NCBI GenBank assembly: GCA_947172415.1 | Contig: OX359193.1 | Span: forward strand, 2,784,501-2,848,500 | Source: Chondrosia reniformis | Lineage: Eukaryota > Porifera > Demospongiae > Chondrillida > Chondrillidae | Direction of reading: 5' to 3' | Length of the DNA: 64,000 nucleotides | The notes under the pieces: generated by a model | Told to the model about the DNA's origin: nothing | What the model saw: the letters and a program-made list of their open reading frames with translations, nothing else | The model's database searches: none | Shown here: positions 9,671-55,665 of the stretch, piece by piece | Position numbering within the stretch: the first letter of the stretch is position 1 | Layout of the letters: each line of letters begins with the position of its first letter | Translations under genes and position numbers: made by a program

Positions 9671-9679
9671 TTAAAATGC

Positions 9680-28099: not shown

Positions 28100-30300
28100 T
28101 GTAGTTGGCAGTTTGTCTGCTGAGGGAACCTGTGTAAAAAATCCATAGATACACTATCAGCAGGACCATTCAAAATACCAGGTACATGCTCAATAGCAAG
28201 TGTAAACCTGAAAAAGGCTGTCAAAAATATCAGCTATATTAATAGCTGCATCATTCTACCAGAAGGCTCTTTTGCAGATCCCTTACTCACAACACAAACC
28301 ACAGCCATATTATCACATTTACAAAGTACATGTTGACCACTCCATGCACTACCCCATAAGGCAGCCGCCAAAACAATAGGAACCAGCTCCTTTACCATAA
28401 TATTGGCATCAGACCAAGCTTAATCCCAGCGGCCCTGAACCCATTAAGTAGACCAAACTGCCCCACAGCCCAAAGAGCCTGAAGCATCAGTCGTGAAAGA
28501 TTTAGTGGTTGGGATGGAATGAGCGAGGTGTAGGAAGAAACACCATTCCAGGTCTCACAAAAAAGCAGCCACCATGCAGGATCAGACCTAAACGACAAAT
28601 TCAAACGAATAAATGGTGCTTCCTTTTTGCAATGCATAGTAAATCAAACATCCTGTGTAAAAAACAAAGCCCTGGAGGGATTACTAAACAAGCAAAATTT
28701 AGCAAACACAAAAACTGCTCAAGTTCTCCCCTTGTACATGATTTTTTTGCAGACCATCTTACCAACTCAACCTTTAGTTTAGATAATTTGTCCATTGGGA
28801 GATGGGCAACTTGCTGGACCGAATCCAGTTCTATACCCAAAAAGGTCAACTTTGTTATTGGGCCTTCTAGTTTTTCAGCTGCCAATGGAATACCCAATTC
28901 TTCACAAGTCTGCAACAAGCTAGATAAATTATTTAAACAATCAACAGAGTCAGCCTTTCCCATGATCAGGAAATCATCCAAATAATACAGAATATGCCCA
29001 ACCCCACGGGAGCGTATAATCCATTCTAAGGCATCTGCATATGCATTAAAAAGGATTGGTGCTGAACATAACCCAAAAGGGATCTGTTTATCAAAATAAA
29101 CATGATCCTTACAAGCCATTGCCAGGAGATGCCTATCATCAGGATGAACGGGAATGTTACGAAAAGCACTGGCAATATCAACCTTTGCCATTAAAGCACC
29201 AGGACCTAATCTACACAGTATTTTTGATGCATCAGCCACAGAAGAATAAACCATGCTAGATAAGGAAGATCTAATCCCATCATTAGCACTTTGTCCCTTT
29301 GGGTAAGACAAATCAACAATAAGTCGCCATTTTCCCGGTGTAGATTTTGGTATCACTCCAAACCTATTATTACCCATACACCCAAAAAACAATCCTCTAA
29401 TAAAATGAACCGGACAAATTATTAGCATTCACCTCATTCGCAATGTATTTTTCAACCACTGCTAGACGTGTTAAAGCGGATGGACAATTTACTTTTTTTT
29501 AGATGATGAATAAAAAAGTGAATGATCAAAACCTATTCGTACGCCGTAGTGCAACCCATCAATCACATAGTGTACCTAAGTAGCATTTGGATGACCAGCT
29601 AAGGTAATCGCCCAATTATGCACCTTAACCATTTATGCGCGAGATAATTACATGGGCGTAATAATCACCTTTGGCAATATTTAATTGTCACGAGGACACC
29701 ATGAGACGGGAATTAAAATTCGTCACCTCAATAGGAATGTGACAACTCTTTATGACTGTAAAACTTGGATGCCGATTTTTAGAAAATATTTTGTTGCTCT
29801 ATTGGCTTCTAAGATGCTCTAATTTTCGAGATATAACCTCTTGTAGTGAAGAAGGTAAGCACAGCCATGTTTTCTAAGTTCCTTCGGGTAAGAAGCTGAC
29901 TATCCACGGAATCAAATTCGGTCATGAAGAGCCAGGTTATCCTTTTGTAACAGTACTTCTTTATGTCATCTATTCAAAGCCCTAGAACATTGGAGAAGCG
30001 TTGTAACCTCAAACAAATTGTTTACTAAACCGTCAAGTGAAGCGTGGCAAGCAGAATAATAAGGCACACAAATAAACCATCATCTTTAGTCTTTGTATCG
30101 CCAACATTTCGGCTGCAGGAGTGTTATGTAGCTCTGTAAATCGCACTACAAAAGGCCCTTGGTATCTTTGATGCAAATATGCGGCACTCGCTATTGAAGA
30201 TACCCAATTATCTGACGCAAATATGCGTCACTCGTGCATAAAGGGTTAAAGGGGGTATCCACACTGTGAGCCATAAGTGGAATAAACGGTTAATCTACTG
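28100..30300 (-). pseudogene. DIRS reverse transcriptase and RNase H
   Basis: The RT start reads SVDTPFKVHNWAITLAGHPN across the insertion point, then HYVIDGLHYGVRIGFDHS (29550). The main open frame (29428-28601) has NRFGVIPKSTPGKWRLIVDL, LMAKVDIASAFRNIPVHPDD (motif A), QIPFGLCSAPILFNAYADAL and HILYYLDDFLIMGKADS (motif C, YLDD intact). RNase H follows with SRLMLQALWAVG in one frame and TTDASGSLGCGAVWS in the next, then KELVPIVLAAALWGSAWSG and HVLCKCDNMAVVCVVSKGSA (28400-28260). Lesions: the 617-bp insertion, a stop at about 29577, frameshifts near 29430 and 28600. The catalytic residues look intact. Confidence 0.9.
29629..30245. mobile_element. 617-bp TTAA element (piggyBac-type MITE) inserted in DIRS RT
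   Basis: TTAA at 29625-29628 and 30246-30249 flank ends CCATTTATGCGCGAG and CTCGTGCATAAAGGG, imperfect inverted repeats matching the AAAGGGTTAA end of the piggyBac copies. A subterminal hairpin, GACGCA..TGCGTC, lies near 30218-30233, as in the other piggyBac ends. Removing the element with one TTAA joins DIRS RT codons in frame. No transposase is encoded, so it depended on a piggyBac transposase in trans. Confidence 0.92.
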
Positions 30301-34099: not shown

Positions 34100-34105
34100 A
34101 AACTC
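34100..34105. other. 6-bp target-site duplication, left copy
   Basis: AAACTC immediately before the TATGGAGC terminus; the right copy is at 43876-43881. Confidence 0.9.
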
Positions 34106-34243
34106 TATGGAGCACCAAAGTGGACAAAAACGAAGATTGATGTCGATGTCGATATCTAAGAGCGATGTCGATATCGATGTCGATGTTTTCCATCGACAGT
34201 CGGTGTCGACAGTCGATCGTCGGTGTCGACAGTCGATCGTCTG
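34106..34243 (+). repeat. left terminal inverted repeat
   Basis: TATGGAGCACCAAAGTGGAC, then ACAAAAACGAAGAT and iterated GATGTCGATGTCGATATC, then two copies of GGTGTCGACAGTCGATCGTC. Matches the reverse complement of 43744-43875. The subterminal iterations may be transposase-binding sites (inference). Confidence 0.92.
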
Positions 34244-34249
34244 TAATAC

Positions 34250-34317
34250 CTGTTCTTCTTTACCGGCTGTTCTTCTTTACCAGCTGTTCTTCTTTACCAG
34301 CTGTTCTTCTTTACCAG
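34250..34317. repeat. four 17-bp tandem units before the HECT start codon
   Basis: CTGTTCTTCTTTACCAG repeated four times (first unit with one change) lies between the terminal repeat and the ATG at 34328, so it would form the 5' leader of the HECT gene. Its effect on expression is unknown. Confidence 0.9.
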
Positions 34318-35593
34318 CTGTTAAGAAATGGCGGAAGACAAAGTACAACAGGCTATTGATATTCTCATACTGCTTCTCAGTCAGCGTGAGGCTGGAGAAA
34401 GCTCCAATTCAGGGTCAATATACAGTGAACCACGCCAAAGAGGTATAAGTTAGGCCAAGCAGCTGCAGGCTAATTTGATTTGCGATTCAGTGTTTCGTGC
34501 TACTACATGGAAATCTGAAAAACTAAACCCCTAGTACCGTGTTACGTAACTGCGCGAACATCTTTTTATACGGGTTCATCGTTATATTATATTGGGCCCA
34601 AGACGTTGACGTTTTTGTACTATTCAGTATAAGGTAAATATACACTTTAAAACTATTCACATGCACTCCTTGGATATTGAAGGCAATTGAAGGCCCTAAT
34701 TGACAATATATTCAATATCGAATATTATAATGTGAATGCTATATAACATGAAGTATCTGTCCGGATGGACGGTTGCAGCAATGAAGTGAACATAATTATA
34801 ATTACTGGTGTATACAAACGTTTATGCATAGGTATATGGTGAGAGATAGGCCAATATAATTGTATGGCATCATGGCAAAATTTAAAAACTCATGCAGTGG
34901 ACATGCATACATGGTGTCTGTGAATGCTGACATCAAGTGGTAGCTTCATGTATATTTGTCCATCTGATCATGTATTGTGAGATATAGGCACATATTATAC
35001 AGTTAAACTTTCTATACTCATTGATCATGCTTAATATAGATGCAGGAGTTGAGTTATATTCTTACAGGATGCCAGCATTAAACATTAATTCATGCTGAAT
35101 TTGCATGGGCTGGCATGAGCTTAGGGCATTAGGCCTATATAGTCTTCATATGTATCCTTTGTAGTCTATGTAGAAATTTTAATGTCGTGTCACTTTTCCC
35201 TAAGTTTTTTCTCACCATTCATGGACTCATTGTTCATGCATTATAGATGCATGGCATGCAGTATATAAAGCATGATCAATTATTATGAGTTATAGAAAGT
35301 TTAATGTACATACATATAATATATATGTGCGCATATATATTCTCACCATACACCAACATAATATATATATCAGAGAGAATGTCAGTACTCTCTAAGTAGG
35401 GATGGCCGAAAAAAACATGGCCGCCCAATCCAATGTATTATCAATTAACACCTAATAAATCAACAGTGATAGGATGTTTGCTTGTATTCGAGTGTTTGCA
35501 GTCGTTTTTGCATGCTTTTCTAAATGCCAAAACATGCTTTCGCCAAGAAAACTTTCAAAACAAATGTTAATAAGAAAAAAGGAGCAATACAAA

Positions 35594-35720
35594 TTAAATA
35601 AAACATTCAAAAATGGAGTTAAAAGTAGGGATGGCAGTATAACAGCGATTGGCACATCTAGAAAAAGCTGTTATAGTGCCATCCCTACTTTAAATTCCAT
35701 TTTTGAATGTTTTTATTTAA
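35594..35720. repeat. foldback repeat in HECT intron 1
   Basis: 35594-35646 and 35667-35720 are near-perfect inverted copies containing AGTAGGGATGGCAGTATAAC. The AGTAGGGATGGC string is shared with the elements at 47586 and 58362. The neighbouring stretch 35394-35590 resembles the reverse complement of 55960-56100. Confidence 0.85.
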
Positions 35721-37137
35721 CTTCATTGTTATGGTCTGCATGCCTTATACAGGGGCAAATATTCGAGGCTCCTGCAGCCGGGCTTTGGATGCAGTTAGGT
35801 CTTTCAGGAACCGTTTGGGTGGTGCTGCAACACTGAATGACATCACAGCTGACCAAAAAGCCAACTTTGGCCCTTACAAGCAACCAAAAGGGAAAGGGCC
35901 TGCCAAAAGAAGTAAAGGAATAAGTTGGACTGTTAAAATGGTATGCTTGAGCTCCACTAATGCTAAGCGAGTGCCTTGTACTGTTGTTGAACGAGAAGCA
36001 CTTATAGAGGCTGGCTTGGGAGAGAAGAAAGTATTCATTGAAGACATAAATTGTTCACATGAGGAGTTTAAATCTGCAATAATTGCAACTTTTCCCAAGC
36101 TAGGTGAATGTGGGGGGTTCGATTTGTTACGATGTATACCCAACACCAAGGAGTTAGAGGTCATTTCTCTGGCTATATCACAGTCACCGAAGCTCTTGAA
36201 GAGTGTGGTGGCATGTGGAAGGGTATTTATCCGACCAATTCAGAAGAACTTGGCCCCTGATCCTGACAAGGAGCTAACCTCTCCAGTGCAGGTGTGTTTG
36301 AATATATACTGCAGGAGTCACTGCATGATACCATCAATGACTCGTGCATTTGGTGTATCGATATCTTTGTTTGTAATTCAGCTTAATGAAAAATGTATAT
36401 ACTCTGGTGAAGAAGTGGCCTTGACTCATTTGAGAAAGCATGTGCAGTGTTGCAGGTTTGACACATGTATATAACTAATCATGAATATATACATATATAC
36501 TTAGAGAGTATACCGTACTCTTTGATAACATATACACTCTATGTACATATGTTATAGACTCAAACCGATAGATAGTGAATCAGCCAGTGGTAGCAGTACT
36601 AGTCTAGGTGATAAGCCTGCCCCAAAGATTCCCTTGCATAAGTATTTCATCTGATGAGTCTGAGGACCTGGATGCAGCTGTGCCTACCAAGGTATTCCAT
36701 AATATACATTTTTATATTTTCATATAAATAATACCTATGCATGCTTGTTATGCAGGTAGCCACTGAAGAAGTGTCAGCATTGACCACTGAGGATGTTCAA
36801 GCCACTGATCATGAAGTAGATGTGACAACCACTGAGAGGATTATGTTAGACCATACAATTAAGCTATCTGATGCTGAATCCTCACTTTTTTATCCGGTTG
36901 AGTTAGTTATAAATGAGAACGGCATGTTTAGCTAATAAATTATTAATTCCTCTGACAGGACTGAGCCCGTAGTTGAGACTCTCAGTGATATTGTGCAGAA
37001 GCTAGCCATAAATATATCGACAGATGAGGTCCAAATTCCACTACGAAGGGATCATGTGCTTGAAGATGCCCTTCGTAGTGTCAAACGTAGTACTTTTCCA
37101 ATAACACACAGAGTGAATGTAAGTATTGTTGCATGCA

Positions 37138-37204
37138 TTATATATATATATATATATATATATATTGCACATGTATATACACAATAGTGGAACTTGCATT
37201 TGCA

Positions 37205-37247
<43 letters not shown>
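37138..37247. repeat. TA microsatellites in HECT intron 6
   Basis: Two runs of (TA)n, about 37138-37164 and 37209-37246; the second directly precedes the acceptor of exon 7. Confidence 0.9.
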
Positions 37248-37250
<3 letters not shown>

Positions 37251-38020
37251 AGGTGCAGTTTCTGGGAGAAGTTGGTGAAGATGGAGGTGGTCTTAGGAGG
37301 GAATTCTGGGCTTTACTATGCAAGGATGTCAAGAGCTCCCTGTTTGAAGGTGTTGGCGATCGGTGCGTCCTGAGACACGATGCTGTTGGTCTACAAGTAA
37401 GGTTAAAATTAAGTAGCAGAGCTTGATTGCACATGATTAAATTAAATTGTAACCGTGTATATATGAATGCAGACAAAGAAGTTCTATCATCTTGGCCGGC
37501 TTATGTCCATGAGTTTGGTGCAAGGTGGCAGTGGTTTTCCATTCTTCGCACCACCCATGTTCAAGTACCTGTGTGGGGTCGAGATGTCCTCAATTGAAGT
37601 TTCTCAGCAGGATGTGCCAAACCTCGAGGTGCTAAGTTTACTGAAGAAGGTATATGGCATAGCTGAATTAAGACTGCACAAATTCATAAGCAGAGTTTGC
37701 CGTGTCTGTCATCTTGCAGATTGAGGAAGCTTCAGATGAGAACACTCTGCGGGCTGTATGCTTTGAGGCAGTTGACATTACCCTTGACGCAGGATACGTA
37801 AAGCCAATCACTGGTATCACAATGGATGGTAAAATTGAGTTGATGAATGTACTGATGTTCCATTATACCTTGTACCGTAACAAAGCAGTGCTAGACCAGC
37901 TGAAATCTGGTCTAGTTACCCTTGGAGTCTTGGGGGCCATGACCCAGTACCCGCATATATTAGAACCATTCTTTGTCAGTGGAATGCAAGCTCCCCTTAC
38001 GGCAGGTTAAGTTATATATA

Positions 38021-38174
38021 TGGCACAAAAAGTACAGAAACAAGAAAGGGATGTTACATAGTGAAGCATTAGCTATGCATTAATCCTACAAGCAAGGGTG
38101 TTGTATGATTCATGCATATATAGCTAATGCTTCACTATGTAACATCCCTTTCTTGTTTCTGTACTTTTTGTGCC
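38021..38174. repeat. foldback element in HECT intron 9
   Basis: Arms 38021-38080 and 38111-38174 are reverse complements (TGGCACAAAAAGTACAGAAA...), differing mainly by a 4-base ATAT insertion near the loop. Confidence 0.9.
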
Positions 38175-38252
38175 ATCCCTACATCTTCACTATTTTTGTA
38201 GAAAATTTTTATTGTTCTCTTATATATAAATAACCATGTATATAGATATATA

Positions 38253-39000
38253 CAGTGCAAGTTACAATATACTAAGGTAATCTAAATAAATAATATAATG
38301 TAATTAAATAATTCATATGGCTCCAAGAAAGGATCTAGAAACAAAATGGGCATATCATCATAAAGTATAGGGTATAAAACTTGTTTTAAATTAAGGGATT
38401 TCTTATTTAGGCCTCCGCTTGTTAGAAAACGGAGGACAAAGTCTGCATATAAAAGGCCATAGGACTATAGAAAACCTAGGGAAAATTTATATTCAAACCA
38501 TGTGTTATATTAATAAAATTTTTCAATTTGTCAGATAACTGTGAAACCAACATATATCATGGTACATGTGCATAGGAAACGTCTGGCGAAGTTTCGCTTA
38601 ATTAAATGAGCAAAATAATCAAGATATAATGAAGAATTCAAGGTTACGATTGCACAATCTGTGATGTATTGTGATGTTTCTCTGGTGCGTCACCAACACC
38701 TCTCGTATGTCGCTCCGTAAACATTTAGTGAATTTTGTGACGTTGGGAAAACGTCACCGCCTCGTTGCTAAAGAAGATCATCCCTTTCGTGAACGGCTAT
38801 GACAAGTCGACGCTCTCCTACGAGAAGGAGCTACGGAATAAGCGAGTTGCAGCGAACGTTAGATAAAGCGTATTTGTATACATTCATGTTAAGTTTAAGC
38901 CAGAATTGTTGCTATACATTGATGTAAAATAAATAAAATAAATTCGTTTAGACGACCGTAGTAAAACTTTGGTAGTTTAAGCTCCGTCATCTCTTCTTTT
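38253..39000. repeat. CAGTGCAAGTTACAA family, half-copy
   Basis: Begins CAGTGCAAGTTACAATATAC and contains GGCCTCCGCTTGTTAGAAAA, GAGGACAAAGTCTGCATATA and CATCCCTTTCGTGAACGGCTA. Copies or parts recur at 39400-40140, 44774-45760, 46830-47020 (reversed), 52060-52350 (reversed) and 55363-55620. Confidence 0.85.
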
Positions 39001-39189
39001 GTTTTCTGTTAGTATTTTTACCTATCCATGTGTGTATGTACGTATGCAGGATTGTAATTGGATACGTAGGGGTGGATTTGGATAAATATGCGTACGTGCA
39101 AGCTCATACGGTACATATAGTCAATCTCTCAGTATATTGCTAGCATATATATATATATTATGCTTGTTTAAATACAATCAAGTACTACA

Positions 39190-40147
39190 CAGTGCAAGTT
39201 ACAAATTTATACACAGATGCAAGTGACTCCCAAGATAATCACACTGAGGTATATAATATAATCTGGATGCAAATGACTCCCAAAATAATCACGATCAGGT
39301 ATATTAAACGCTACAAGACTTTAGCCACACTGAAATTCTCAACTGCGGCATACAGAGTAGTAGTCTCTACAGATCATATAAGGTTAAATACATGGCCTTA
39401 ATATAATATAAATAAATAAATAATATAATATAAATAATTCATATGGCTCCAGGAAAGGACCTAGCAACAGAATGGGCATAGTATCATAAAGATTAGGGTA
39501 TAAAACTCAGTTTTAATTGAAGGATTTTTTATTTAGGTCTCCATTTGGTAGAAAACGGAGGACAAAGTCTGCATATAAAATGCCATAGGACTATAGAAAA
39601 GCTATAGAAAATTTATATTGAAACCAAGTGTTATATTAGTAAAAATTTTCAATTCGTCAGATAACTGTGAAACCGACATATATAATGGTACATGTGTATG
39701 ACAAATGTCTGGCCAAGTTTTGCTTAATTAAATGAGCAAAATAATCAAGATATAATGAAGAATTCAAGGTTACGATTGCGCAATCTGTGATGTATTGTGA
39801 TGTTTCTCTGGTGTGTCACCAACACCTCTCATATGTCGCTCCGTACACATTAGGTGAATCTTGTGACGTTGTGAAAACGTCACCGCCTCGTTGCTAAAGA
39901 AGATCATCCCTTTGTGAACGGCTATGACAAGTCGACGCTCTACTACGAGAAGGAGCTAGCGAACAGGCGAGTTGTAGCGAAGGTTAGATAAAACGTTTTT
40001 GTATAAGTTCCCGTCAAGTTTGAGGCAGAGTTGTTCCTATATTTATGCGAAAGACTAAATTCGTTTGGTCGACGGTGTTACTTTGGTAATTTAAGCTCTG
40101 TCTTCTCTTCTTACGTTATCTGTTAATATTTTTACTTGTCCATGTGT

Positions 40148-40181
<34 letters not shown>

Positions 40182-40630
40182 TGGCAATATTAAACTTGTA
40201 CACAAGGGAGATCACATACATATATAAAGGCCTTGGCCTTTTATGTCCCTTGTGTACAAGTTACAAAATGGTCTCAAACCCTGTTGATTATGCAAATGCA
40301 TGCAACCAACCATCGGTGTTCTTAGCTCCCTCACAAGGCAAATCTAATCTGCTGTGGTTATTAGCTGAGACCCCTTTAATACTGGAGCCTTTGTTGATAT
40401 ATGGCATGCAGATGCATCATCTTCAGTCTATACTAAGGTGTGAAAAGGTAATTGGTAGGCCATGTGTTCTACCTTGCAATTGGATGATCTGTATCAACTA
40501 TTACTCTCTATGCAGTAGTTGAGGATTTCAAAGCCTGCAACAGTACTAGTGTGACTAAAGTCTTGTACTGTTTAAAATACTGATTATCCTAGGGGTCACT
40601 TGGATCTCTTTAAATTTGTAACTTGCACTG
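39190..40630. mobile_element. 1.44-kb long-TIR element in HECT intron 9
   Basis: Both ends are CAGTGCAAGTTACAAATTTA in opposite orientation, and the homology extends inward about 200 bp (39190-39400 against 40440-40630, reversed). The interior holds a copy of the repeat described at 38253 and a conserved open stretch at 40260-40440 (NPVDYANACNQPSVFLAPSQ). No recognisable transposase; non-autonomous. Confidence 0.75.
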
Positions 40631-41244
40631 CATGTGTAGCTAGTACTTGATTGTAATTTTAATATTGTGTAGTCACTTGGTCCTCTTAAATTTGTAACTT
40701 GTACTGTGTAGTACTTGATTGTAATTTTAATATTGAGTATATATATATATAAGTGTGCCATTCCAGTCTGATTATGTTACTCTATATCCCTCATCCACAT
40801 GCAGATATGATAAGCTAGCTATTTGTACTCATACGCTTTTCTGATACTGGGACTACTGAAAGAAAGAAGGAAGAGGCCACCTACATGCTATTTTTAGATC
40901 TTCTCCATGATTGTGAATTAGAAGGTATAATTGTATATATTATACCTTCAAATTCACAAGTATCATTTGGTATATTCATGTATATCTCGTATATAGCAGA
41001 TGACATCCCAGTCAAAGTATCCCTGGTGCAGATACTCAGTTTTTTCACTGGCACTGAGTATCCTCCACCAGGTGGTTTTCAGGTACCAGCAAGTATCAAT
41101 TTTAACCCAACTTCGGAATTCCCACTTGCCTCTACTTGTGCAATACAACTTACTTTGCCAACACAACACTATGACAACCCGGAACGTTTCTTTGAGAGGA
41201 TGGTATATGGAATAGCCAACCATGGAAGGTTTGGTTTGCTTTAA

Positions 41245-42203
41245 CTTCTTACAATTAGTATACTTATAGGTATAGATGAGGTTTAACCTTAAGTTAAACA
41301 GAGTTCATGAACAGAGTGTATTACTCAATGCGTATATTATATATCTACAGATTATCTATATACGTAGAGATATAAATTAGCGTAAGGCATATTATCAACA
41401 ATTGCGCAATAGGAGTTGTATTTACAATAGTTACAAACATTGGTCATGTATGCATTCGAAAAGCTCTGCAGGCGCACAGCCACTAGGTCTTGCATCATCC
41501 CTAATTGGTCCCATCCTGTCAGGTTCCAGGGGTTTCTTTTCTCTCCATCTTCGGATGTGATCAGGCCTCAGTGGGTATGCAGCATGCGGTGGTACCTCAT
41601 CTTTCCAAAGCACTCATTTTATGTAATGTAGGTGCAGGCGGACTTATCATGTAGTCAAGCCAAGGTAATAGGTCGCAATTGGCCTTAAGGTATTTGTAAT
41701 TCTAACCTCGTAATTGATATGTCGCCATGTCATATATATAAGTTGGTCATTCATAACTTTGTGGATAAACCATATAGTTTCCAAAACATTGACTTAAGAA
41801 AGCTGGGCTTAATTATTACAATTTCCCTAATCACCCTGCCTGCACCTTAAAATCTATATCGTATTGCGGGAGTTGCTAGGCAACTTTATACCCCCTAATA
41901 TTTAGCGGTTTAAGTTTGCTGCCTACCCCAGCCTTCCGCCAGCTTATTGCATAATATGCACAGGCTAAAGGATATAACCCCTGGTTCCTGATTAGGAAGG
42001 AGAACTGGTATATAGGGTTACATATATATACACACACTACATGCATGGCTTGCCCCATCATGAGGTGTGGTATGTACTATCTCTAAGCATTGATGGAGCG
42101 TATAGACATTAAGTATATATATATACATAGTTTGGTATAACTTCTTGTATACTATACAAGATGAAATAATTGTCAAAACTTGATAAACTTGTTGAGCCAA
42201 TTA
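41245..42203. other. spacer between convergent HECT and integrase genes
   Basis: AT-rich, about 960 bp, without a supported gene; expected to contain both 3' ends and polyadenylation signals. Confidence 0.5.
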
Positions 42204-43740
42204 TTAAATACATTCTTTAATAAAGGCACGTGCCATCACGTACAATGACATGCCAAGGTCATCACACTGCTCAAGTGGATCCACAGCCTGATTCAATTCC
42301 TCCATTTGCTGTAGATTAAGGGGGTTTCGTGTAACTGGGACATCCACAATGTCAATATCGGTTTCTGTTGGCACTGGCCCACTCCAGTCAATGCCATATT
42401 CATCCTAACATATATAGTGAAAGATATTTTTAAGCATATATATACGTATATCAACCACAATATAAAAAATGCATGGCATGCATATATATGTCAATCCTTA
42501 CCAAGGAGTCCTCCAAAACACCCTGGATTGCAGCATCATCTCCTGATTCTTGTGTCATGCCTCTTGTCCATAGCTGTAAAGGACTTTGATTCCCAGCAGT
42601 ACGTATACGATGATTGGTGTATGATTGCCGAAACACATCCAGTTGAGCATTGATGCGGGGAATGAATACATGGTGCAGTGCAAAAAGGTCAACATTATTT
42701 GAAGGATCCAAGATTCCACTGTCTTCCATTGAATAAAAAAGATAATAAAACAAGGAGATGCAACCCATGAATACGTCTCTCCACAGTCGTTCTATTCTTT
42801 GATTGTGTACACTCCTCCCAGTGATACATCTTCTTCGGCCAGGACCACGTTCTGGGTGATTAAGCATGAATTCTGACACCCTGACATTCTCACCTCCTCG
42901 ATCACATCTTACTCTTGAGGGTAATCCATGCCTTCTAACAGCATCTAGAAAGCACAACAGCACTGTATCAGCAAGATTATTTGTGGAAGCTCTAAGGCAC
43001 ACAGGTAACCTTGAGTATCCATCGATTCCTCCATGAATGACAACACGCCACCTGATTAATTTATGGTGACCATCAATATGCCACAAACTGTTTGGCATGC
43101 AAACATGGTATTGCCTCCGATGAAGAGCCTGTCTGAATCATGTCTGTACCCCTCTAGGATCAACTCTTAAAAGGCTATCCCTGACCCTGGAACGCTGTAT
43201 CTTCAGTCCTAACCCCCTCAGATATCCGTCAAGTGACCTCTCACCTGAGTTTGGGCGTGTGTCAACATACCGTCTTGTAATGGTGTCAAGGTCTGTGTCA
43301 CTGAGCATACTAAACTCAGCATCCTCTTGCAAACCGTACTGAAGAATTCTCCTTCTGATTGTTCGTGGAGACACTTGTAACATTTTTGCTATTTCAACAT
43401 TGGAAAAATGGAGCTCTAACAGAGTCACCAACTGTTCCTCACTAATTGGAATTTATGGACGTCCTTTGATATGTTGGCGATAGCACTCATCCACGTGGTT
43501 TCGAATGGCTTTAACCATATCAAAAATAGCCTGCACAATCACCTCACCACCTGGTAGTTGCATGAGTCCTTCTACTGTTACAATATCCCTAAGAATCAGC
43601 TCTGCTTGTAACAGCAAAGTTCCTTCCATGTCTTCAGATAGGATATCACTTTTTTGCTCAATTTCTCTGATAGCTTCTTCCACTTCCAGAAAAAAATCAT
43701 TCAGCTCTTGATTGTTATATATCCTCTATATATATATTTT
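42204..43740 (-). pseudogene. rve-type DDE integrase/transposase of the transposon
   Basis: Catalyses strand transfer at the terminal repeats (by family). Main exon from about 43740 to 42502: helical N-terminus (LNDFFLEVEEAIREIEQKSD), helix-turn-helix LHFSNVEIAKMLQVSPRTIR (43410-43340), then the rve core with WHIDGHHKLIRWRVVIHGGI (first Asp), SRVRCDRGGENVRV (second Asp) and GRSVHNQRIERLWRDVFMG (catalytic Glu), followed by YTNHRIRTAGNQSPLQLW. Donor TTG|GTAAGG at 42502-42501 and acceptor at 42404 join the last exon (42404-42204) in phase 0: DEYGIDWSGPVPTETDIDIV to AFIKECI. Lesions: TAA at 43453-43455 and TGA at 43138-43140. No ATG is clear, so a short upstream exon is likely. Confidence 0.88.
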
Positions 43741-43743
43741 ATC

Positions 43744-43875
43744 GTCTACATAGACATCGACTGTCCACACCGAAGATCGACTGTCGACACCGACGATCGA
43801 CTGTCGACACCGACTATCGATATCGACATCGACATCGACATCGATCTTCGTTTTTGTCCACTTTGGCGCTCCATA
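43744..43875 (-). repeat. right terminal inverted repeat
   Basis: Reverse complement begins TATGGAGCGCCAAAGTGGAC and continues with the same GTCGAT iterations and GGTGTCGACAGTCGATCGTC copies as the left end. The number of iterations differs slightly between the two ends. Confidence 0.92.
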
Positions 43876-43881
43876 AAACTC
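43876..43881. other. 6-bp target-site duplication, right copy
   Basis: AAACTC immediately after the right terminus, identical to 34100-34105. Confidence 0.9.
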
Positions 43882-44363: not shown

Positions 44364-44773
44364 GTAAGTTTTATCTTAATTTTGTAATAATTTACCGGTG
44401 TGCATAATTAATACGAAGAGACCTTGGATTATGACTCTATAATTCTGTGTAAGTGTCCTTTTGAGATTTTCAGCTCTAACTGCTGGTATAATGATTTAGA
44501 ATACCTCAAATATAACCAACTGACTTATACTCTTCATAGCACATCTGACTATTTATCGCTAAGCAGATGATGGCTATCTTGCCTGCCTTGTCCAGCGTAT
44601 CCTGGCAGGTGGGGAATAAGACAGGGTGTGTACTTGTACCTTTAGCCTTTTGGCAGTTTCTAATTGGTAGTAGTCCAAAGTACTGATTTCACTTTTGTTG
44701 TACATATGTATATGATCCTTTCCCAAATTAATGATTCTTTTGAGGTAGTTATGATTAGATGATTTTATATACA

Positions 44774-45760
44774 GTGCAAGTTACAATATACTAATGTAAT
44801 CCACGCTAATCTAATGTATTCCAATTAAATAAATCACATGGCTCCAATAAAGGACCTAGAATCTGGCACATTATCATAAAGTTTAGGATATAAAACTCAT
44901 TTGAAATTAAGGTATTTTTAGGGGCTGCCAATGCCTTATATTGTTTTCTTTTGCCGATTACGTTGTGTGGCTTCATGTTATGGAAAGATATATACAGTAC
45001 ATGTTACAATATTCTCATATAATATGATATATAATTAATATAATATAATTAATTCATATGGCTCCAAAAGGACCTAGAAACAGAATGGGCATATTATCAA
45101 AACGTTTACGGAATAAAACTCATTTTAAACTTAAGGATGTTTTATTTAGGCCTTCGTTTATTAGAAAACGGAGGACAAAGTCTGCATATAAAATGCCATA
45201 GGACTATACAAAAGCTATAGGAAATTTATATCAAAACTAAGTGTAAAATTATCAATTGGTCAGAACACTATGAAACCGACATATATCATGGTACATGTGT
45301 ATGACAAACGTCTGACGAAATATTGCTTAATTAGAATTGCAAGATAATCAAGATATAGTGAAGAATGCAAGGTTACGATTGTGCAATCTGGTGATATATT
45401 ATGATGTTTATCTAGTGCGTCACCAACACCCATGTATGTCGCTCTGTACTCATTTAGTGAATCATGTGATGTAGCGAAAACGTCACCACCTCGTTGCTAA
45501 AGAAGATCATTCCTTTTGTGAATGGCTATGACAAGTCGATGCTCTCCTACGAGAAGGAGCTACCGAATAAGCGAGTTGTAGCGAAGGTTAGATAAAGCGT
45601 ATTTGTATACGTTCCCATTAAGTTTGAGGTACAGCTGTCCCAATATTGATGCAAAAGTAATTTGTTTAGTCAACCGTATTAAAACTTTGATAATTTAAGC
45701 TCTGTCTTCTCTTTTTATGTTTTTTGTTCATATTTTTACTTGTCCATGTGTAGTAATAAG
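44774..45760. repeat. CAGTGCAAGTTACAA family copies
   Basis: Two starts, at 44774 (CAGTGCAAGTTACAATATAC) and about 44996 (CAGTACATGTTACAATATTC), followed by one long body with GGAGGACAAAGTCTGCATAT and GACAAGTCGATGCTCTCCTA. One partial copy appears to interrupt or precede the other. Confidence 0.8.
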
Positions 45761-46079
45761 GAGTGTTTGTTGTAATGATTATGAGAATAAAGCCTTGTTG
45801 TGTGTCAGCAACATGAATTTACTAATTTCCTACTTGATACTCCCATTCCTGTGTTACTTTTGAAGACCTCCAGGTTGAAGTATCCAGAATTAGTGAATTT
45901 TTGTTACTGACGTTCAACAAGGCTTTATTCTTATTTATGTGTGTACGTTTTCCCTGTGTACATACAATAGAATCTCATAACGAAATTGCTCATAGTGAAT
46001 GTCTATGTATAGTGAAGTACCTTGTTGGCTAATTACACTCAAGTACACTACAGAGTGAAAATTATTGGCAAATATATAA

Positions 46080-47020
46080 AATATTAAAATTACAATCAAG
46101 TACTACACAGTACAAGTTACAAATTTAAGAGGTCCAAGTGACTATATAATATTAAATTACAATCAAGTACTAGCTGCACAGTGCAAGTTACAAATTTAAA
46201 GAGATCAGAGTGACCCATAGGATAACCAGTATTTTAGACACTACAAGACTTGAGTCACACTGTTGCAGGCTTGGAAATCCTCAGCTACTGCATAGGGAGT
46301 AGTAGTTGATGGAGATCAACCAAGGTAGAACACATGGCCTACCAATTATTTTTTCATACCTTAGTATAGAACTGAAGATGATGCATCTGTATGCCATATA
46401 TCAACAAAGGTTCCAGTCTTAAAGGGGTCTCAGCTAATAACCACAGCAGATTTGATTTGCCTTGTGAGGGAGCTAAGAATACGGATGGTTGGTTGCATGC
46501 ATTTGCATAATCAACAGGGTTAGAGACATTTTGTAACTTGTACACAAGGACATAAAAGGTCAAGGCCTTTATATGCGTATGTCATTATATGTGTACAGAG
46601 TGACATGCAGGAGTGTTAGTGACACACTAGAGAAACATCACAATACATCACCAGATTGTGCAATCGTATACTTGCATTCTTCATTTAATCTTAATTTTTT
46701 TGCAATTTTGATTAAGCAAAACTTGGCCAGACATTTGTCATATACTTATACCATGATATACGTTGGATTCAAAGTGATCTGACCAATTGAAAAAGTTTAT
46801 CAATATTACACATTGTTTCAATGCCAATTTCCTATAGGTTTTCTATAGTTCTATGGCCTTTGATATGCAGACTTTGTCCTCCGTTTTCTAACAAACGGAG
46901 GCCTAAATATAAAATCCCTTCATTTAAAATGAGTTTTATACCTTAAACTTTATGATAATATGCCCATCCTGTTTCTAGGTCCTTTCTTGGAGCCATATGG
47001 ATTATTTAATTATTTATTTA
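46080..47020 (-). repeat. CAGTGCAAGTTACAA family, reversed copy
   Basis: 46120-46570 matches the right part of the element at 39190-40630 in reverse, including the NPVDYANACNQPSVFLAPSQ frame (46530-46360). 46830-47020 matches the GGAGGACAAAGTCTGCATAT body in reverse. Confidence 0.8.
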
Positions 47021-47039
47021 ATTTTATTTACCGGACTCT

Positions 47040-47580
47040 CTAAGTAGGGATGGCCCAAAAAAGATGGCGGCAGTAGTCAATGTATTACGAATTAACACCT
47101 TATACATTGGCACACGAATGCGTCTTTAGCTCTTTTACACCTCTAATGTTTATTTTTGTATGATGTCAATTGAGGGAAAGTTGTTTTGAAGACCGCATGT
47201 TAGCTTGAAGTTGGTAAAACAGTTGCAGAACTACTTCCGGTTTTCCTCATTTTCTTCTGCTTCTTCTTCCTTTTATTTCACGCTAGTGCATAAATGCGCA
47301 TATGGATAAGTACATCTTAAGGTTATATCGTCTAAAAAGTTTAGGAACTAGGGAATAGGCATGCTTCTGTTTTAAACGATTTGAGTAGAGACGGTAATTT
47401 ATGATACGTCAGATGAGAGGAAGCTTTTTGTTGCCATTTTTTAATTAACTCTCAGTTATCTCTTCTTTTCTCTTTGACCGCGACGTTGTTTCGACTTGTC
47501 GACAAAGAAAACTTTCTAACAAGTAATATTAACAAGAAAAAAGTGGGGTAACAAGATAAATGAAAACATTAAAAATTAAA
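47040..47580. repeat. AGTAGGGATGGC family, long member
   Basis: Starts CTCTAAGTAGGGATGGCCCA and ends with AAAACATTAAAAATTAAATT next to AGTAGGGATGGCAGTG. The start recurs at 35391 (CTCTAAGTAGGGATGGCCGA) and reversed at 61010. Confidence 0.6.
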
Positions 47581-47585
47581 TTAGA

Positions 47586-47732
47586 AGTAGGGATGGCAGT
47601 GCTTCCAACAGTCAGTAGCAACAAGAGAATGATCATGTGGCAAGGACAACCATACAGAAGTGGCATATATACTGTAATTTAAGTGACTTAACCATACACA
47701 TCACTTCCATGTTTGGGCGCACCATCCCTACT
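47586..47732. mobile_element. 147-bp MITE, AGTAGGGATGG ends
   Basis: Ends AGTAGGGATGGCAGTGCTTC and ...GCGCACCATCCCTACT are inverted. The inside shares CCATACAGAAGTGGCATATA and TTAACCATACACATCACTTC with the copies at 58362 and 59832. It touches the 3' end of the MULE pseudogene. Confidence 0.85.
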
Positions 47733-47739
47733 CGCGGTT

Positions 47740-50370
47740 GCACCCAAACATGCTGGAAAGCTGGGGGTTGGTGGCATCATGACTGGTTGTGGGGTTGGAA
47801 CCAAGGTTGCAGTACCTGCAGGATCAGTATGTGGCACGCTCATCTCAGCCCTTGTTTTAGCTGGTTGTGATGGCTTCCTTGACCGTGGTGCAACTCCTCC
47901 CTTCCTTCTGCGGCCTTTTGGCATATTGGTGGTCACCAGTTTAGTCATGTTACCTGTCTTCTTTGACAGGAACTCCATTAGCTTGCCGTTGATGTCTGCA
48001 ACTGCCACACAGTGGGAGAAATCCCCATTGCTTTCCAGTTTGCACAACTGGAGTCACAGCCAAAGTCTCCTCTATTCTTGGGAGTGACCAAGTGAGGCAT
48101 CTGGCCATTACAGCTTAGCACCATTCTGGCGGTTGGGTCTTGCCCAGATGCGGGTTTGATGCCATTCTCAGTGCTGATGAGCTTTGCTGCTTTGCTCCAT
48201 ATGCCTTCAAGGCATTTGTAGGGAATGCTCACAAACTGAGCAGCATTGTCAAGGTCAACAGACAGTACAGGCTTGCCAGTGGTGGCTTGCTCGCATTGAC
48301 TCGATGTTGGTGGTGAAATCAGGGGAGAAGTTGGCAGAGCAAGTTGTGCAGAGCTGCCACTGGCATCTGACACCACTGCTGAGTGGACACATGCATTGTG
48401 CTTTCTTCGCTGCTCCTGGTTCATTGCGAACCACTTCCCCTCCTGAATTTCCAAAAACTTACACTCCTCTCTAAACTGGTACTTGCCCCTGCCAATAATT
48501 GCATGCTCAACTTCCCGCTGTTGCTCATCAACAAGCTCCTTCATTTCACCAACGAAGTCAGGAAGCTTGTTTCGTTTGTAGTTGACTTGGTGTTTAAGAA
48601 CAGCATTGATGCTCTCACTAACATTGGTAGTAAACTACATTCCTCCCTGATAGGGCACAGCATAGTGTCCTGTATCACAGCAGCTGTCCTTGTGGAAAAA
48701 TACTCAATGAATCTTTCTAAATCAGCTGCACTGGGTAAGCTAAGGTCTGGCCATACCTGCAAAATTGCCGCAAGCTTGCTCTGGAAGTCTGGAACTCCAG
48801 AGGATGGACAATGCCATCCACAAACACACTGCCCAGCTTCCTGCCAAAAATATCATCAAGGATCTTTTTGTGCCAGCTCACTTAGGATGTTGCAATCAGC
48901 CAGCTTGTCCTTGATATTGTGACGGACATGGATGAAGCATGTCAAGCGCTGAGCAAATCCAAACTCGTGTGTCAGTGCATTGGCTAGGGCATCCTCTCCA
49001 TCTGTGCCAAATGCTCTGGCACCTTCCAGCTGTGGAGACATCCCAACAAGTGATGATGCAAAAAAAGGTAAGTGGCCAAGGTTTTCCGATGGTGAATGAG
49101 TACTGGGCCCAAAATCACAGGGTTTTCTTGCTCCACTTTGTCTCCAGCAAAAGATGCCGATATGTGATGGGAGTCACATCAAAATCCCCAAGGGTGAAGG
49201 TTGGGTCTGCAGTGACTATTCCAAATTCGGAACTGGTGCTAAATGTCATTGACCTGGCACTGTGCAGCAATGACAATGGCAGGATCTGGTGATGCTCGAA
49301 TGGCACGATAAACTTCGACGATGGATCCTCAGTTCCGGCCTACTGCAGGATTACAAACAAATCATCTGCATCTGCATTTGACCCACTGCCTCTCTCTTTG
49401 CCCTTCATATTCCGCTGCACATTCGTCATTCGCATTTCATCCTGTGGGAGCTGCCCTGGTGCAGAAGCTCTGGCTACTCCTCCCACAGTAGATGACAGAC
49501 ATATCACTGTTGCCTTTGGACCTTGATGCTTACTCTCCCTCTTGATCTCATCTAGGGTACTAGGCCACGTCAGGTGGAAGGGCTTCTTCTCTTTAGCATT
49601 CCTGTGACTGACAAGGGCTGGAATAAATCCTTGGGGGAAGTGGTATATCACCAAGCAAAGATGATGTGCATGGGCAATTCCATGCATCTACATAAATAGA
49701 GAGCTTGCATGTGATACCATATGTAGTGGGAAACATTTCCATTTTTGTGCTAAATTGAACATTTTGTAGTTCAATTTTTTGACTCATTACATACGGGAGA
49801 AGATTCTGCGACATGAAATTTTGTGAATTTGGACAAATTGGGAAAATAGCGAACATTAAAACTTGCAAAATTTTCCTGATACATGGTAAGTAAGCAATGA
49901 GGAAGGTTACACACAATACAGGGCATACTTCGTACCTGTCAAGAAACAAATAAGCCATTTGAACTCCACATTTGACGGATGTGTGCAATAAAGCCGACGC
50001 AGGAGTACTACATTACTTCCTGTAGCACCTTCAGCACATTTCTCGATTGTGATATCATCATCCTCCTCATCAAATGCCTTAAATGGCTGTGGGTGTAACC
50101 CAGTGTAGTTCCATTTGCCAAACTCATCCTTCTTTATATCATCTATGTTCTGGAGCTGGCGGACATCAACCAAATATGTTGCACTGTGAGTCACCAAGGT
50201 TGGTTTTACTTTGCAGATCCTTGTTTCATTTGGACAGATTAAATTTGGAGGATTCGCTCTGTGCTATACCTCGATAGAAGGTTTTTGTACACCGGCTAAT
50301 GGGAATCTTCTTTAGGGCTGTCAGCAATAAACTTTAATTTCTTCTGTGCTGGTACCATGTGCACCTATAT
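47740..50370 (-). pseudogene. MULE-type transposase relic with SWIM-like zinc motif
   Basis: From the N-terminus: TFYRGIAQ (50270), HSATYLVDVRQLQNIDDIKK and LRRLYCTHPSNVEFKWLICF (50190-49940), a probable intron 49935-49690 (donor CAG|GTACG), AWNCPCTSSLLGDI/AHHLCLVIYHFPQGFIPALV (49680), KKPFHLTWPSTLDEIKRESK (49580), ADPTFTLGDFDVTPITYRHL (49210), ARAFGTDGEDALANALTHEF with LTCFIHVRHNIKDKL (49020-48900), FPLLV-like helical regions and CDSSCANWKAMG then FSHCVAVADINGKLMEFL (48040), a SWIM-like zinc region. DPTF and GTDGE carry the expected Asp residues. Frameshifts near 49110, 48870 and 48030 kill it. Confidence 0.78.
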
Positions 50371-50751
50371 GAACAACAGATGTGTATTTATATGGAGTGT
50401 TGACAAGATGCTACTGTGTAACTAATTGCCTCTTGTATTGCCATGTCTTGTCTAGGCAATATCTCACTCACATGCAAGCATTGTACAAGAGCAGTGTAGC
50501 TTACTACTAACTTTCATCGAAGTCAGGTTCTTCCTTGATAAAAACTCTACTTTCTCTTTGATGTCAGGGTTTGGACTGTCCAATAACACTATTGTATCAC
50601 TACAGTGAATATGGTATATCATGATGCATGAAAAGATGTAAATTATTAGCCAGTCATTCAGTTCAGTTATGGTAGGATGGTGTCATGTTTGGACTTAAAA
50701 GTGCTAACTGGTGTTAGATATGATCCTCCTATCCAGATTACAGTTCTCTCA

Positions 50752-50776
50752 TAATAATAATAATAATAATAATATA
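50752..50776. repeat. TAA microsatellite
   Basis: About eight ATA/TAA units. Confidence 0.9.
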
Positions 50777-51462
50777 TAGCTAGATGCATACTCACTGAAA
50801 CTTGGTTGCATTCAAATATTGTAAGCCTGAAAACCAATGGTGACACAAAGTAGTCTCCCAATTGGAAAGTAGTGTCATAGGAGATGCAGGTTCAGGGAAT
50901 GTCAGCATTTTTTCCATATCCTCCTCTAATATTTCATTCAAGCCACATACGTACAACATTTAGGTAAGGCACTGTTGTTATTTGTGGACATAAGCTAGAA
51001 GATCTGAATCAATTTCATGCAGATTGAATAAGCCGTCATGCTAAAAGCTCATTTTTTGCCTTTCTCTTTGTTGTTTATTGGCTATTTGTTTGGCATTCCA
51101 TCATATGGTAGTTCTCTGGTGTGATCCTGGTATGTTTCCACTGCCAATAGGCACAAACTGCTTATACAGAACAGATGGATTCGAAGTTGTTGTTCTTATT
51201 TCTTCCATGACAGAGGGACATGTCTTTCCATAGGAAGCAGAGCTTTTAGTTGAGTTCCCATGTGGAAAGGGGGGCTCGTCTTCCTTTGGTACTGTACCTA
51301 TAATTAAATTATGAAAATATATATAAATGCGTGTATATCAGATATCTATCTTAATTCATGTACTCATATTTACCCTTATAATGAATCAAAACATATTCAG
51401 CTCATCCTTCCATAATTCATACACTTCTTTCTTAAATGAGTCTGATTTTCCAGATCTTAGTT

Positions 51463-51700
51463 CTACTTGGTAATAGAACTTTCGATGATAAGACTCTTCT
51501 TTGGCAGCTTCTTTTTTCCATTCCAGCTCCAACGATATTGATCATACTTCCAGTCTAATAGGGTAAGCATTTTAGTTAGCCACGTTTTAAACATGTTGAT
51601 TGCGATCGTCCGATGATCGATCTTAACAACTAGCTTCTTATTAGGCATTCCCTGTATAAAACTCACTCTTATGTCCATTTTCGAAAAGATACGCTTCTCC
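51463..51700 (-). pseudogene. unrecognised coding-like segment
   Basis: Minus strand reads MDIRVSFIQGMPNKKLVVKI, INMFKTWLTKMLTLLDWKYD and QYRWSWNGKKKLPKKSLI. The composition is protein-like (DWKYDQYRWSWNGKKKLPKK), and a related-looking broken frame, STWELN.KLCFLWKDMSLCH, follows near 51270-51190. It is upstream of and co-oriented with the MULE relic and might be an accessory gene of it, or a separate element. The family is not known to me. Confidence 0.35.
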
Positions 51701-51786
51701 TCCAGCAGGCTTATACAGTAATAGCTTAGAAATGTAATAATTCTAAATTTAAAGAGAGATCTTTATACAATTTCAATATCATGACT

Positions 51787-51815
51787 CATACTACTACTAC
51801 TACTACTACTACAGC
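51787..51815. repeat. ACT microsatellite
   Basis: About eight ACT units. Confidence 0.9.
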
Positions 51816-52059
51816 AACAATATGATTTCAGTGCTACTTACTTCGGGTTTAAGTAAAATGTCTTGTATTCTTGGAACATTTAAGGTTTCCAGTTTGTTAA
51901 AGATGGCTGTTGCTTCTCCTTCTTAGCCTCTGCCTTTTAGAATATTTTGTCTAAAAATCGGACCTAACCACTTGATTGATATTAACACTAACGGTCCGGT
52001 TTGGTCCGTTTGGTCCGGAAAGTAGTGATGCCCGCATCCCTATGTACCCAATTACATTC

Positions 52060-52720
52060 CATACAAATGTGCAAACATGGATACATAAGCATAGAACTTA
52101 ACAGAAGAGAAGACAGAGCTTAAATTGGTGAAGTTTTAATACGGTTGCCTAAACGAATATCTTTTGCGTCAGTATATTCCTATAGGAACAAGTCTGCCTC
52201 AAACTTAACGGAAACGTATACACATACGCTTCATCTAACCTTCACTACAACTCGCTTATTTGGTAGCTCCTTCTTATAGGAGAGCGTTGACTTGTCATAG
52301 CCATTCTTGAAAGGATGATCTTCTTCTGGAATGAGATGGTGACGTTTTTGCAACGTCAAATGAATCCAAAAATGTGTATGCAGGGACACATGCAGTTGTT
52401 GGTGATGCAATAGACAACATCACTTTACATCACCAGATTGTGCAATTACATTGTACATGAAATAAAGTAATGGCCTCAGCCTTTATGTCCCTGTGTGCAA
52501 GTTACCAAATGGTCTCTAACCCTGTTGTTTATGTGAATGCATGTAACCAACCGTCGGTACTCCTAGCTCACACCCAAATTTGCGGTAATTATTGGCTGAG
52601 ACCCCCTGAGGCTGGAATTTTTGTTGAAAATGGCAAACGAATGCATCATTTTCAGTCTATATACTAAATTGTGAAACGGTAATTGGAAGGCCATGTGTTT
52701 AACCTTATATGATCCTTAGA
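52060..52720. repeat. CAGTGCAAGTTACAA family, diverged copy
   Basis: 52060-52350 matches in reverse the block with GACAAGTC and TTCACTACAACTCGCTTATT. 52490-52670 has the third copy of the frame NPVVYVNACNQPSVLLAHTQ, more diverged than those at 40266 and 46530. Confidence 0.75.
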
Positions 52721-52904
52721 GACTCTGTATGCGAAAGTTGTGAATTACAGCAACAAGACAGTGATCATATGGTAATACCAGCCATGCAGAAGTGGCATAT
52801 TGAAATGTAACTATACACATCACTTCTATGTTTTGAACTCATGAGTGGAAGTATATAGAAAACATAGAAGTCATGTGTAAAGTTAAATTTCAATATAGCA
52901 CGAT

Positions 52905-54330
52905 CTCTAGGGTCAGGAACAATCGAAACCCTGAATTCAACTGTGAAATGAGAGGTTGGATGGCCAGGCAGAAGAGAAGGGGGCCTAGAGGATCACCCTA
53001 TTGAACACCCTCAGAGGACCATAAAATGGATAGCTGAAACTATAGGGATGATGGGTTAGAATAATAAGAGAAAATATAGGGAAAGAGTTCGGGGATCTTT
53101 TCTTTAACTGCCTCAAGCATTTATCCCTTCTCACATTGTTGAATGTATTTTTGAAATCAAGCTTCAGTAGAACATAATCAAGGGGTAAATTGCTGAGGTA
53201 TAGTCTTGAGGAGTGAACCGCTGTTTCTGCCCCGAGAGTTATGCCATAGCCAAGCTGTAATGGTACCAGATTGGACCCTGTTCTTCGCATAACAGCCTTG
53301 CTGGCTGTTTTAGCTACTAGGCGGTGCAAGATACAACCAACTACGATTAGCCATGTTCCACCATCCTTTTTTGTGAGTGCTGTTAGCAAGGCACCAAACA
53401 GAGGAGGCCATATTTCTAAGGGAACAATGCCTTTGAGTACCAGGTTGGTGAAGGCTGTGAGTGTCTACAGTAGTAGGGTACCACCTGTTTCAGCTGAGGC
53501 ATTAGTCATGTCCTGTAAGTGTTGGTGATGAAGGCTGTCTGGGCCTCCTGCCGAACCCTTGGGGAAGGATCGAATGCCAGAAGCACATCTTCTGCACTAA
53601 CTATCAGACACATATCACACATATCACACATATCTTCTGATGGGGCTTGTACAGGAGGGTGTCTGGATGGGGCTCCTTATGTTGGGATCTCTTGGCCATG
53701 ATGGTCGATTCATTATCATTGGCCACAGAGTCCTCTGAACAGACTAAATAGATGAACAGCACCCTTAAAATTCCCCTCCTCTAACTTCTCTGACACCCTG
53801 TTAGCTAAGAGCGGGAGAGGCTCCTAAGTAGCTTGTTGTCTTCTGAGGCAGGATCTTTGGTTATCAGGGGAAGGTGATGGGTCGCATTCCTCGTCCTCTG
53901 TTTGGTTGGCGTGTTTTGCCAAGCTCCAATGGTGACCTCCTCTCCTGGGAACTTGGAAACAGTGCCTGGGTATTTTAAGAGTCTCATTCAGGTGCTGATG
54001 CTGTTGTTTGTAGTCACCTAAACCATGATACAAGATAACTTCATTGTGGAATGATTGTGGAAGCATGTGGTACACTTTTAAAGATCCTCACTTGCAGAAA
54101 TGGAGAAAAGTAAGCAGTAGGTGATGGTGACGGTGATGGTGTGGGGTCTTGTGGTAGAGGATGCTCGGGCGCAGCAAGCTGTTGTAAACTCTGTGTCACT
54201 GTATTGGCAGATTTTCATGATCCAGCTCATCAACATCCGACTGGGCCTCGTACATGGAGGTGGCCGTCTCTGAGAAGGGGCATTGAACAAAGGCAGACTG
54301 AACATGGTACCCCCGAACCTCCTTCCTTAT
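52905..54330 (-). pseudogene. LINE B reverse transcriptase relic
   Basis: Minus strand: a possible zinc-finger start (CQYSDTEFTTACC near 54200), an N-terminal helix SEKLEEGNFKGAVHL (53790), then the RT from about 53410: ALLTALTKKDGGTWLIVVGC, LHRLVAKTASKAVM, VPLQLGYGITLGAETAVHSS and LLKLDFKNTFNNVRRDKCLR (motif A, Asp present). After a frameshift comes GVQ-stop-GDPLGPLLFCLAI with QPLISQLNSGF (motif B). The YADD motif and all that follows are missing. This is a different family from LINE A. Confidence 0.82.
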
Positions 54331-54419
54331 CCTCTATCACACACTTCTATAAACAATTAGTCTCTATCTCTAACTCTTGCAAGCTTCCAACTTGGGAAGC
54401 CACTCTACTTTTAAAGTTG

Positions 54420-55010: not shown

Positions 55011-55049
55011 TACTTGGCACTATGTCTCGGCACCAAAGCCGAGACAAAC

Positions 55050-55340: not shown

Positions 55341-55362
55341 ATATATACATACATATATATAT

Positions 55363-55629: not shown

Positions 55630-55665
<36 letters not shown>
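55363..55665. repeat. CAGTGCAAG-family fragment ending in TA microsatellite
   Basis: Begins CAGTACAAGTTACAATATAC, follows the 38253 body for about 260 bp and stops in a (TA)n run at 55629-55664. Confidence 0.85.

Follow-up and report, generated by a model that had tools for sequence, protein, structure and literature searches.

The window, a stretch of 64,000 bases from the genome of the sponge Chondrosia reniformis (contig 5, bases 2784501-2848500), contains at positions 34106-43875 a DNA transposon of 9770 bp that was inserted with duplication of its target. Between its termini lie two convergent genes, one for a HECT E3 ubiquitin ligase (+ strand) and one for a DDE integrase (- strand). 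We interpret the element, at a probability of about 0.7, as a cut-and-paste transposon of the IS3EU/GingerRoot type, belonging to a sponge lineage whose larger members carry this convergent pair, with the ligase acting as an accessory against the host. The parts of this interpretation are held with different strength: the HECT ligase is very probably a genuine gene of IS3EU-type elements; its anti-host role, proposed by analogy, is put forward tentatively.

The genome searched comprised 117,379,552 bases in 15 contigs; the chromosome table of assembly odChoReni1.1 gives 14 chromosomes and a mitochondrion (PMC12181767). In the locus names used below, C followed by a number denotes the contig.

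Element and gene pair in the window

The outermost 51 bases of the two ends of the element were 94% complementary, and a gapped inverted repeat extended to about 137 and 124 bases at the left and right end, respectively (Table 1). The terminal 20-mer occurred in the window at the two element ends only, and two matches were obtained in none of 100 shuffles. The HECT gene starts 222 bases inward of the left end, and its stop codon (41242-41244) faces that of the integrase (42451-42453). An earlier note on this DNA had described exact 6-bp AAACTC flanks, inverted termini of about 130 bp and these same element coordinates, with the ligase starting near the left terminal repeat and its stop facing the integrase stop, all of which we could confirm. 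The resemblance to IS3EU that it named is likewise backed, by the termini (TATGG..CCATA, fitting the IS3EU/GingerRoot pattern TAYGG..CCRTA; in the related element on contig 6 one end reads TATAG), by the 6-bp length of the target duplication, as in IS3EU/GingerRoot, and by the type of integrase.

The integrase matched Pfam rva_4 with an E value of 1.7e-82 and displayed a D-56-D-36-E catalytic triad; the HTH_23 match was barely above the cut-off, and the zinc-binding integrase domain (HHCC) was not found among the Pfam matches. Two relatives in the same genome matched the NCBIfam models for IS481 (6.4e-20 and 5e-14) and IS3 (2.9e-12 and 1.1e-8), in all cases below the curated cut-offs. We also noted that a public protein of 339 aa (P0002, from a contig of 1,659 bases) is 95% identical to the C5:2867k integrase across two thirds of the latter; it may be an expressed copy.

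The ligase gene was modelled with ten exons bordered by GT/AG, to which a small exon within the last intron can be added, making about 11 in total; in this model the phases at the border of exons 5 and 6 do not fit. The joined exons matched Pfam HECT with E 1.1e-11. Both the N-lobe and the C-lobe of the HECT domain are present, and the Pfam HECT model was matched by four of five element-type ligases; a profile of these five, run against the PDB, aligned with residues 6-387 of the 388 of AREL1 (E 1.3e-20). The catalytic cysteine motif TCxxxLxLP (STCAIQLTLP in the window) is retained at nine of the 11 loci read beside an integrase. The N-terminal part, with its predicted ubiquitin-like and zinc-finger-like stretches, gave no Pfam match above the cut-off; the zinc-finger-like motif matched the Pfam TRAFD1/XAF1 zinc finger weakly (E 0.066) in the relative P0125. 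In another predicted protein, P0138 (284 aa), a ubiquitin-like stretch of the ligase type is joined to a SWIM zinc-finger match that is weak and below the cut-off (E 0.0093). G2E3-like proteins may be among the closest known counterparts of the element ligase. The size of the element, 9.77 kb, overstates its core, because the last HECT intron holds dispersed repeats (38239-40744) that recur outside the element, at window positions 44766-55662.

The gene pair elsewhere in the genome

DNA searches with both window ends returned eight further places (C3:5198k, C4:1897k, C4:1911k, C2:6330k, C14:4057k, C3:469k, C1:5675k and C7:1838k), of which six were read (all but C1:5675178 and C7:1838087). HECT exons were present at five of the eight, namely the two on contig 4, C14, C2 and C3:5198k. 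The earlier note had set down window-type termini lacking the ligase as evidence against its reading; of the six places read, one, C3:469k, showed no HECT exon within about 1.5 kb on either side (3 kb covered). The C3:5198k copy is a deletion derivative of 2022 bp, flanked by CGTGTA, in which most of the sequence corresponds to window-element bases 1-899 and 8693-9770, with HECT exon 1 retained. The two places on contig 4, C4:1897411 and C4:1911528, are left-part copies on the same strand, 14,117 bp apart, with the same score and identity to the query; this looks like a recent local duplication.

A screen of 14 merged regions for paired termini flanked by a 6-bp duplication recovered three further two-ended elements containing both genes: C4:4252944-4261048 (8105 bp, duplication CATATA, terminal inverted repeat 20/20), C6:3531176-3537407 (6232 bp, ATCACC, 17/20) and C5:4411098-4416282 (5185 bp, TTGATC, 20/20). 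With the window element, this makes four two-ended elements from four divergent families, each holding the pair in convergent order within its own 6-bp duplication. The ligases of the four families share only 28-38% identity across their aligned parts, meaning that the association of HECT and integrase is old. The remaining ten regions, C1:5648k among them, gave no such end pair in the bases covered.

Pairing was also evident genome-wide. Scanning the entire assembly with Pfam yielded at least 77 HECT rows in 30 loci and at least 77 rva_4 rows in 54 loci; seven of the 30 HECT loci were no more than 8 kb from rva_4, where uniform placement would give 0.23 (binomial 2.8e-9). Convergent orientation was seen in six of the seven pairs; in the seventh, C1:5643k, the integrase belongs to another element and HECT lies on its wrong side. 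Leaving out the window pair, which had prompted the test, six of 29 HECT loci were near rva_4 (8.4e-8). As a control we used DDE_Tnp_4 (121 loci from 150 rows, 150 of 177 candidates having been scored), near which none of the 30 HECT loci lay, with 0.53 expected. A query with the element ligase gave 30 rows, grouped manually into 18 HECT loci; 12 of these were near an integrase, 11 of them convergently. Together with C5:4486k, C8:3809k, C2:4595k and C6:3766k, the convergent pairs number 15, with common ends demonstrated for a minority of them and with two (C5:2759k and C9:2715k) spaced 6-7 kb.

The presence of the same pair in three further two-ended families and at 15 convergent loci upholds the claim of the earlier note that the ligase is element cargo, not a host gene that was jumped around. 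On account of the 7/30 pairing and the further two-ended families, capture of a single host gene was rejected. Chance capture of a host HECT by the window element, or landing of the element around such a gene, could appeal to the 23 of 30 Pfam HECT loci that lie away from rva_4 and are presumably mostly host genes; set against the four families that share the pair, the 15 paired loci and the absence of any HECT locus near the control transposase, it is very improbable.

The earlier note had named a second counter-indication, HECT genes that sit at host loci and lack the termini; this was checked in part. Seven ligase-type HECT loci have no nearby integrase (six of the 18, plus C1:4968k), and the only one of these read, C1:5102k, has an IS3EU-like terminus, TACGGGGTGCC, beside a decayed gene. 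One of the six, C11:7548k, has a Pfam HECT locus as its neighbour and is possibly a gene of the host.

The integrase tree contained 28 rows (30 minus two short ones), of which 11 are HECT-bearing, two HECT-less (C1:7303k and C7:3091k) and 15 unlabelled, C5:2867k included. The HECT-bearing rows were spread across all main branches, requiring nine changes against a shuffled mean of 8.9. This scatter fits an ancestral ligase followed by losses. It would also suit repeated acquisition of a separate HECT gene by different transposon lineages, as with TET/JBP in fungi; that explanation is unlikely given the convergent order at 15 loci, the near pairs that share both genes, and the HECT losses with remnants that were directly observed. 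Across ten loci, the distances of the two genes were correlated (r 0.79, p 0.0004). In close pairs the differences in integrase and HECT were about equal (0.05 and 0.07 for C1/C5, 0.14 and 0.12 for C4/C5); between distant loci the HECT distances were 0.48-0.78, as computed from joined partial exons, against 0.31-0.62 for the integrase. The ligase is common in these elements, probably ancestral, and not obligatory.

Table 1. Coordinates of the element and its parts (window positions)
Feature	Position	Strand	Remarks
Left target-site duplication, AAACTC	34100..34105	.	exact match to right copy
Left terminal inverted repeat	34106..34242	+	begins TATGGAGC
HECT exon 1, start codon	34328..34442	+	kept in C4 and C3 copies
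HECT exon 2, predicted ubiquitin-like (beta-grasp) N-terminal domain	35753..36291	+	predicted fold of a relative
HECT exon 3, zinc-finger-like motif	36382..36455	+	CxxS, CxxC in relatives
HECT exon 4, acidic linker	36558..36691	+	frame disrupted in window copy
HECT exons 5 (36756-36896) and 6 (36959-37118)	36756..37118	+	3' splice site of exon 6 uncertain
HECT exons 7 (37253-37396), 8 (37473-37649) and 9 (37720-38005), N-lobe	37253..38005	+	
HECT intron swollen by nested dispersed repeats	38006..40999	.	foldback 38006-38190; duplicated repeat of about 1.1 kb, 38305-40147
Small HECT exon within intron	near 40835-40920, borders approximate	+	by eye and alignment
HECT last exon, C-lobe, cysteine motif STCAIQLTLP, stop	41000..41244	+	Pfam HECT E 8.6e-9
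IS3EU-type integrase (HTH, rva_4 DDE core)	42451..43725, 5' end approximate	-	Pfam; stops at 43138-43140 and 43453-43455
Right terminal inverted repeat	43752..43875	-	ends GCTCCATA
Right target-site duplication, AAACTC	43876..43881	.	exact match to left copy

Elsewhere in the window, on the - strand, we observed a transposase fragment (8548-9072, Pfam DDE_Tnp_1_7, E 1.9e-26) and two reverse-transcriptase-like frames (28604-29428, RVT_1 E 1.5e-19; 5355-6254, a weak RVT_1 match at 0.00057).

Possible roles of the ligase

A number of observations weigh against our interpretation, or against parts of it. Some concern the state of the copies. The integrase frame of the window is broken by two stops, with homology continuing on either side (the sister copy on contig 3 has neither), and HECT exon 4 is open in no phase, yet open in the C4 copy. 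The window copy therefore lacks the intact transposase expected of an autonomous element and is probably unable to make a working integrase; the word "complete" in the earlier note holds for the structure of the element, not for its function. None of the four two-ended elements with both genes has its integrase in a single open frame (two stops in the window, four in C6, two frames in C4, three in C5:4411). At C1:5648k the integrase is open across its matched part and the ligase is stop-free in the matched exons; since no ends were found there and none of the four integrases is open, no autonomous HECT-bearing element was found among these loci. The shorter HECT comparisons gave dN/dS values of 0.45 to 1.31, and the C8 and C5:2867k integrases differ by one synonymous and 16 other changes (5.1), without sign of constraint. 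With the two close pairs removed, integrase and HECT distances correlate weakly (r 0.29, p 0.086).

Other such observations concern elements without the ligase, complete examples of which exist in other families. The C1:7303k element (1885 bp, TATACA) contains only an integrase. The same applies to C5:2866644-2868851 (2208 bp; duplication matching at five of six bases, in the best of three candidate end pairs), where the integrase has a long open frame of 471 aa from the first ATG and no HECT was found around it. A third complete element, C7:3091k (2380 bp, CTTTTG), has an integrase and, convergent to it, a frame of 195 aa in which only the N-terminal part of a ligase, as in C5:4411, is recognised (43% identity, E 3.6e-29), meaning that the HECT domain was lost. 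In all, the 6-bp duplication is exact for C4, C6, C5:4411, C3:5198, C1:7303 and C7:3091, and C5:2867 has five of six bases. Because two complete relatives are without HECT and two deleted elements (C3 and C7) have remnants only, HECT is not needed in cis.

Finally, the pairing has been observed in one genome only. In favour of our interpretation, relatives occur in two other sponges, Halichondria panicea and Corticium candelabrum. Three scans of IMG/VR viral contigs, one with the integrase and one each with an alignment of HECT and of the integrase, found no relative. A scan of bacterial genome contigs found the integrase on three short contigs from a metagenome-assembled genome of a Cycloclasticus symbiont of a poecilosclerid sponge, none of them showing HECT; two extend beyond the integrase by 1.1 kb and 2 kb, and the third ends just behind it. 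The 2-kb flank of one of these was filled, by eye, with reverse-transcriptase-like frames; as the integrase is of eukaryotic type, the three contigs are probably misbinned sponge DNA.

The decay just described could mean that the ligase has been carried along for long, serves no function today and deteriorates with its copies: several complete elements have lost HECT or hold a truncated form, the cysteine is lost at two of the 11 loci read, and exon 4 is disrupted in the window. This is improbable, given that the cysteine is retained at the other nine loci across very divergent families, that the C4 copy has an open exon 4, and that the longest HECT comparison, of two copies across 218 codons, gave a dN/dS of 0.26. 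A functional ligase might instead ubiquitinate the integrase of its own element, either limiting copy number or, once joining is done, unloading the strand-transfer complex. At 15 loci the two genes lie side by side in convergent orientation, and close integrases carry close HECTs at similar distances (C1/C5 and C4/C5), as such a partnership would lead one to expect. We consider it doubtful all the same, since integrase-only elements persist and HECT distances exceed those of the integrase between distant loci.

Those same two points tilt the balance slightly towards a ligase that removes a host factor, and away from one that controls the integrase: distant ligases diverge more than integrases do, and the persistence of complete integrase-only elements suggests help in trans. 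The anti-host role is kept tentative because the close pairs show no faster change in the ligase. Taken as a whole, our proposal, somewhat more speculative than that role by itself, is that an IS3EU lineage in sponges has since its ancestor encoded a HECT ligase whose ubiquitin-like recruiting domain would serve to remove a nuclear defence or repair protein and thereby enable movement. The integrase would cut and join the TATGG..CCATA ends, staggered by 6 bp. The substrate of the ligase would be a nuclear protein located at the transposon or at the target of the latter, to which the ligase would be recruited by its ubiquitin-like and zinc-finger-like part; the ubiquitin mark would bring about removal of this substrate, in all likelihood a factor of host silencing or repair. 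The ligase would thus be an accessory anti-host factor, comparable to what has been proposed for TET/JBP in fungal elements, and deleted or integrase-only relatives may use the products of full copies in trans.

If several divergent families of one superfamily do keep a ubiquitin ligase, these transposons would encode a means of acting on the protein turnover of their host, and the host factor that holds such elements in check in sponges might be traced through it. The IS3EU accessory enzyme for which an anti-silencing role has been proposed in print, TET/JBP in fungi, acts on DNA methylation. The convergent two-gene design, found across several natural families, makes the question testable.

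Comparison with known transposons and ligases

A HECT-bearing DNA transposon or IS3EU element was not found in the literature, as searched by titles and abstract openings; Repbase was outside this search, and its curators may have noted the gene. The words HECT and ubiquitin are absent from the texts of PMC10045372 and PMC12730594.

According to these two papers, TA..TA ends characterise the IS3EU families, and their target duplications usually measure 6 bp (PMC10045372, PMC12730594). The window element shares with IS3EU/GingerRoot the 6-bp duplication, the TA..TA termini (TAYGG..CCRTA in fungi), inverted repeats of more than 30 bp, and a DDE integrase of IS3/IS481 kinship without the HHCC domain (PMC10045372, PMC12730594); to these it adds the gene for a HECT E3 ubiquitin ligase. 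Fungal IS3EU elements, like those of the sponge, can carry accessory genes, in their case for an alpha-kinase, opposite in orientation to the transposase, and for TET/JBP, for which an anti-silencing function has been proposed (PMC12730594). The sponge elements differ in their host, in having a ubiquitin ligase as the accessory enzyme, and in its convergent placement in many families. As regards the ligase itself, a full HECT domain with the TCxxxLxLP cysteine motif is shared, by sequence, with AREL1 and the NEDD4 family. Compared with known HECT E3 ligases, the element ligase is distinguished by its predicted ubiquitin-like and zinc-finger-like N-terminal part, and by the location of its gene in a transposon.

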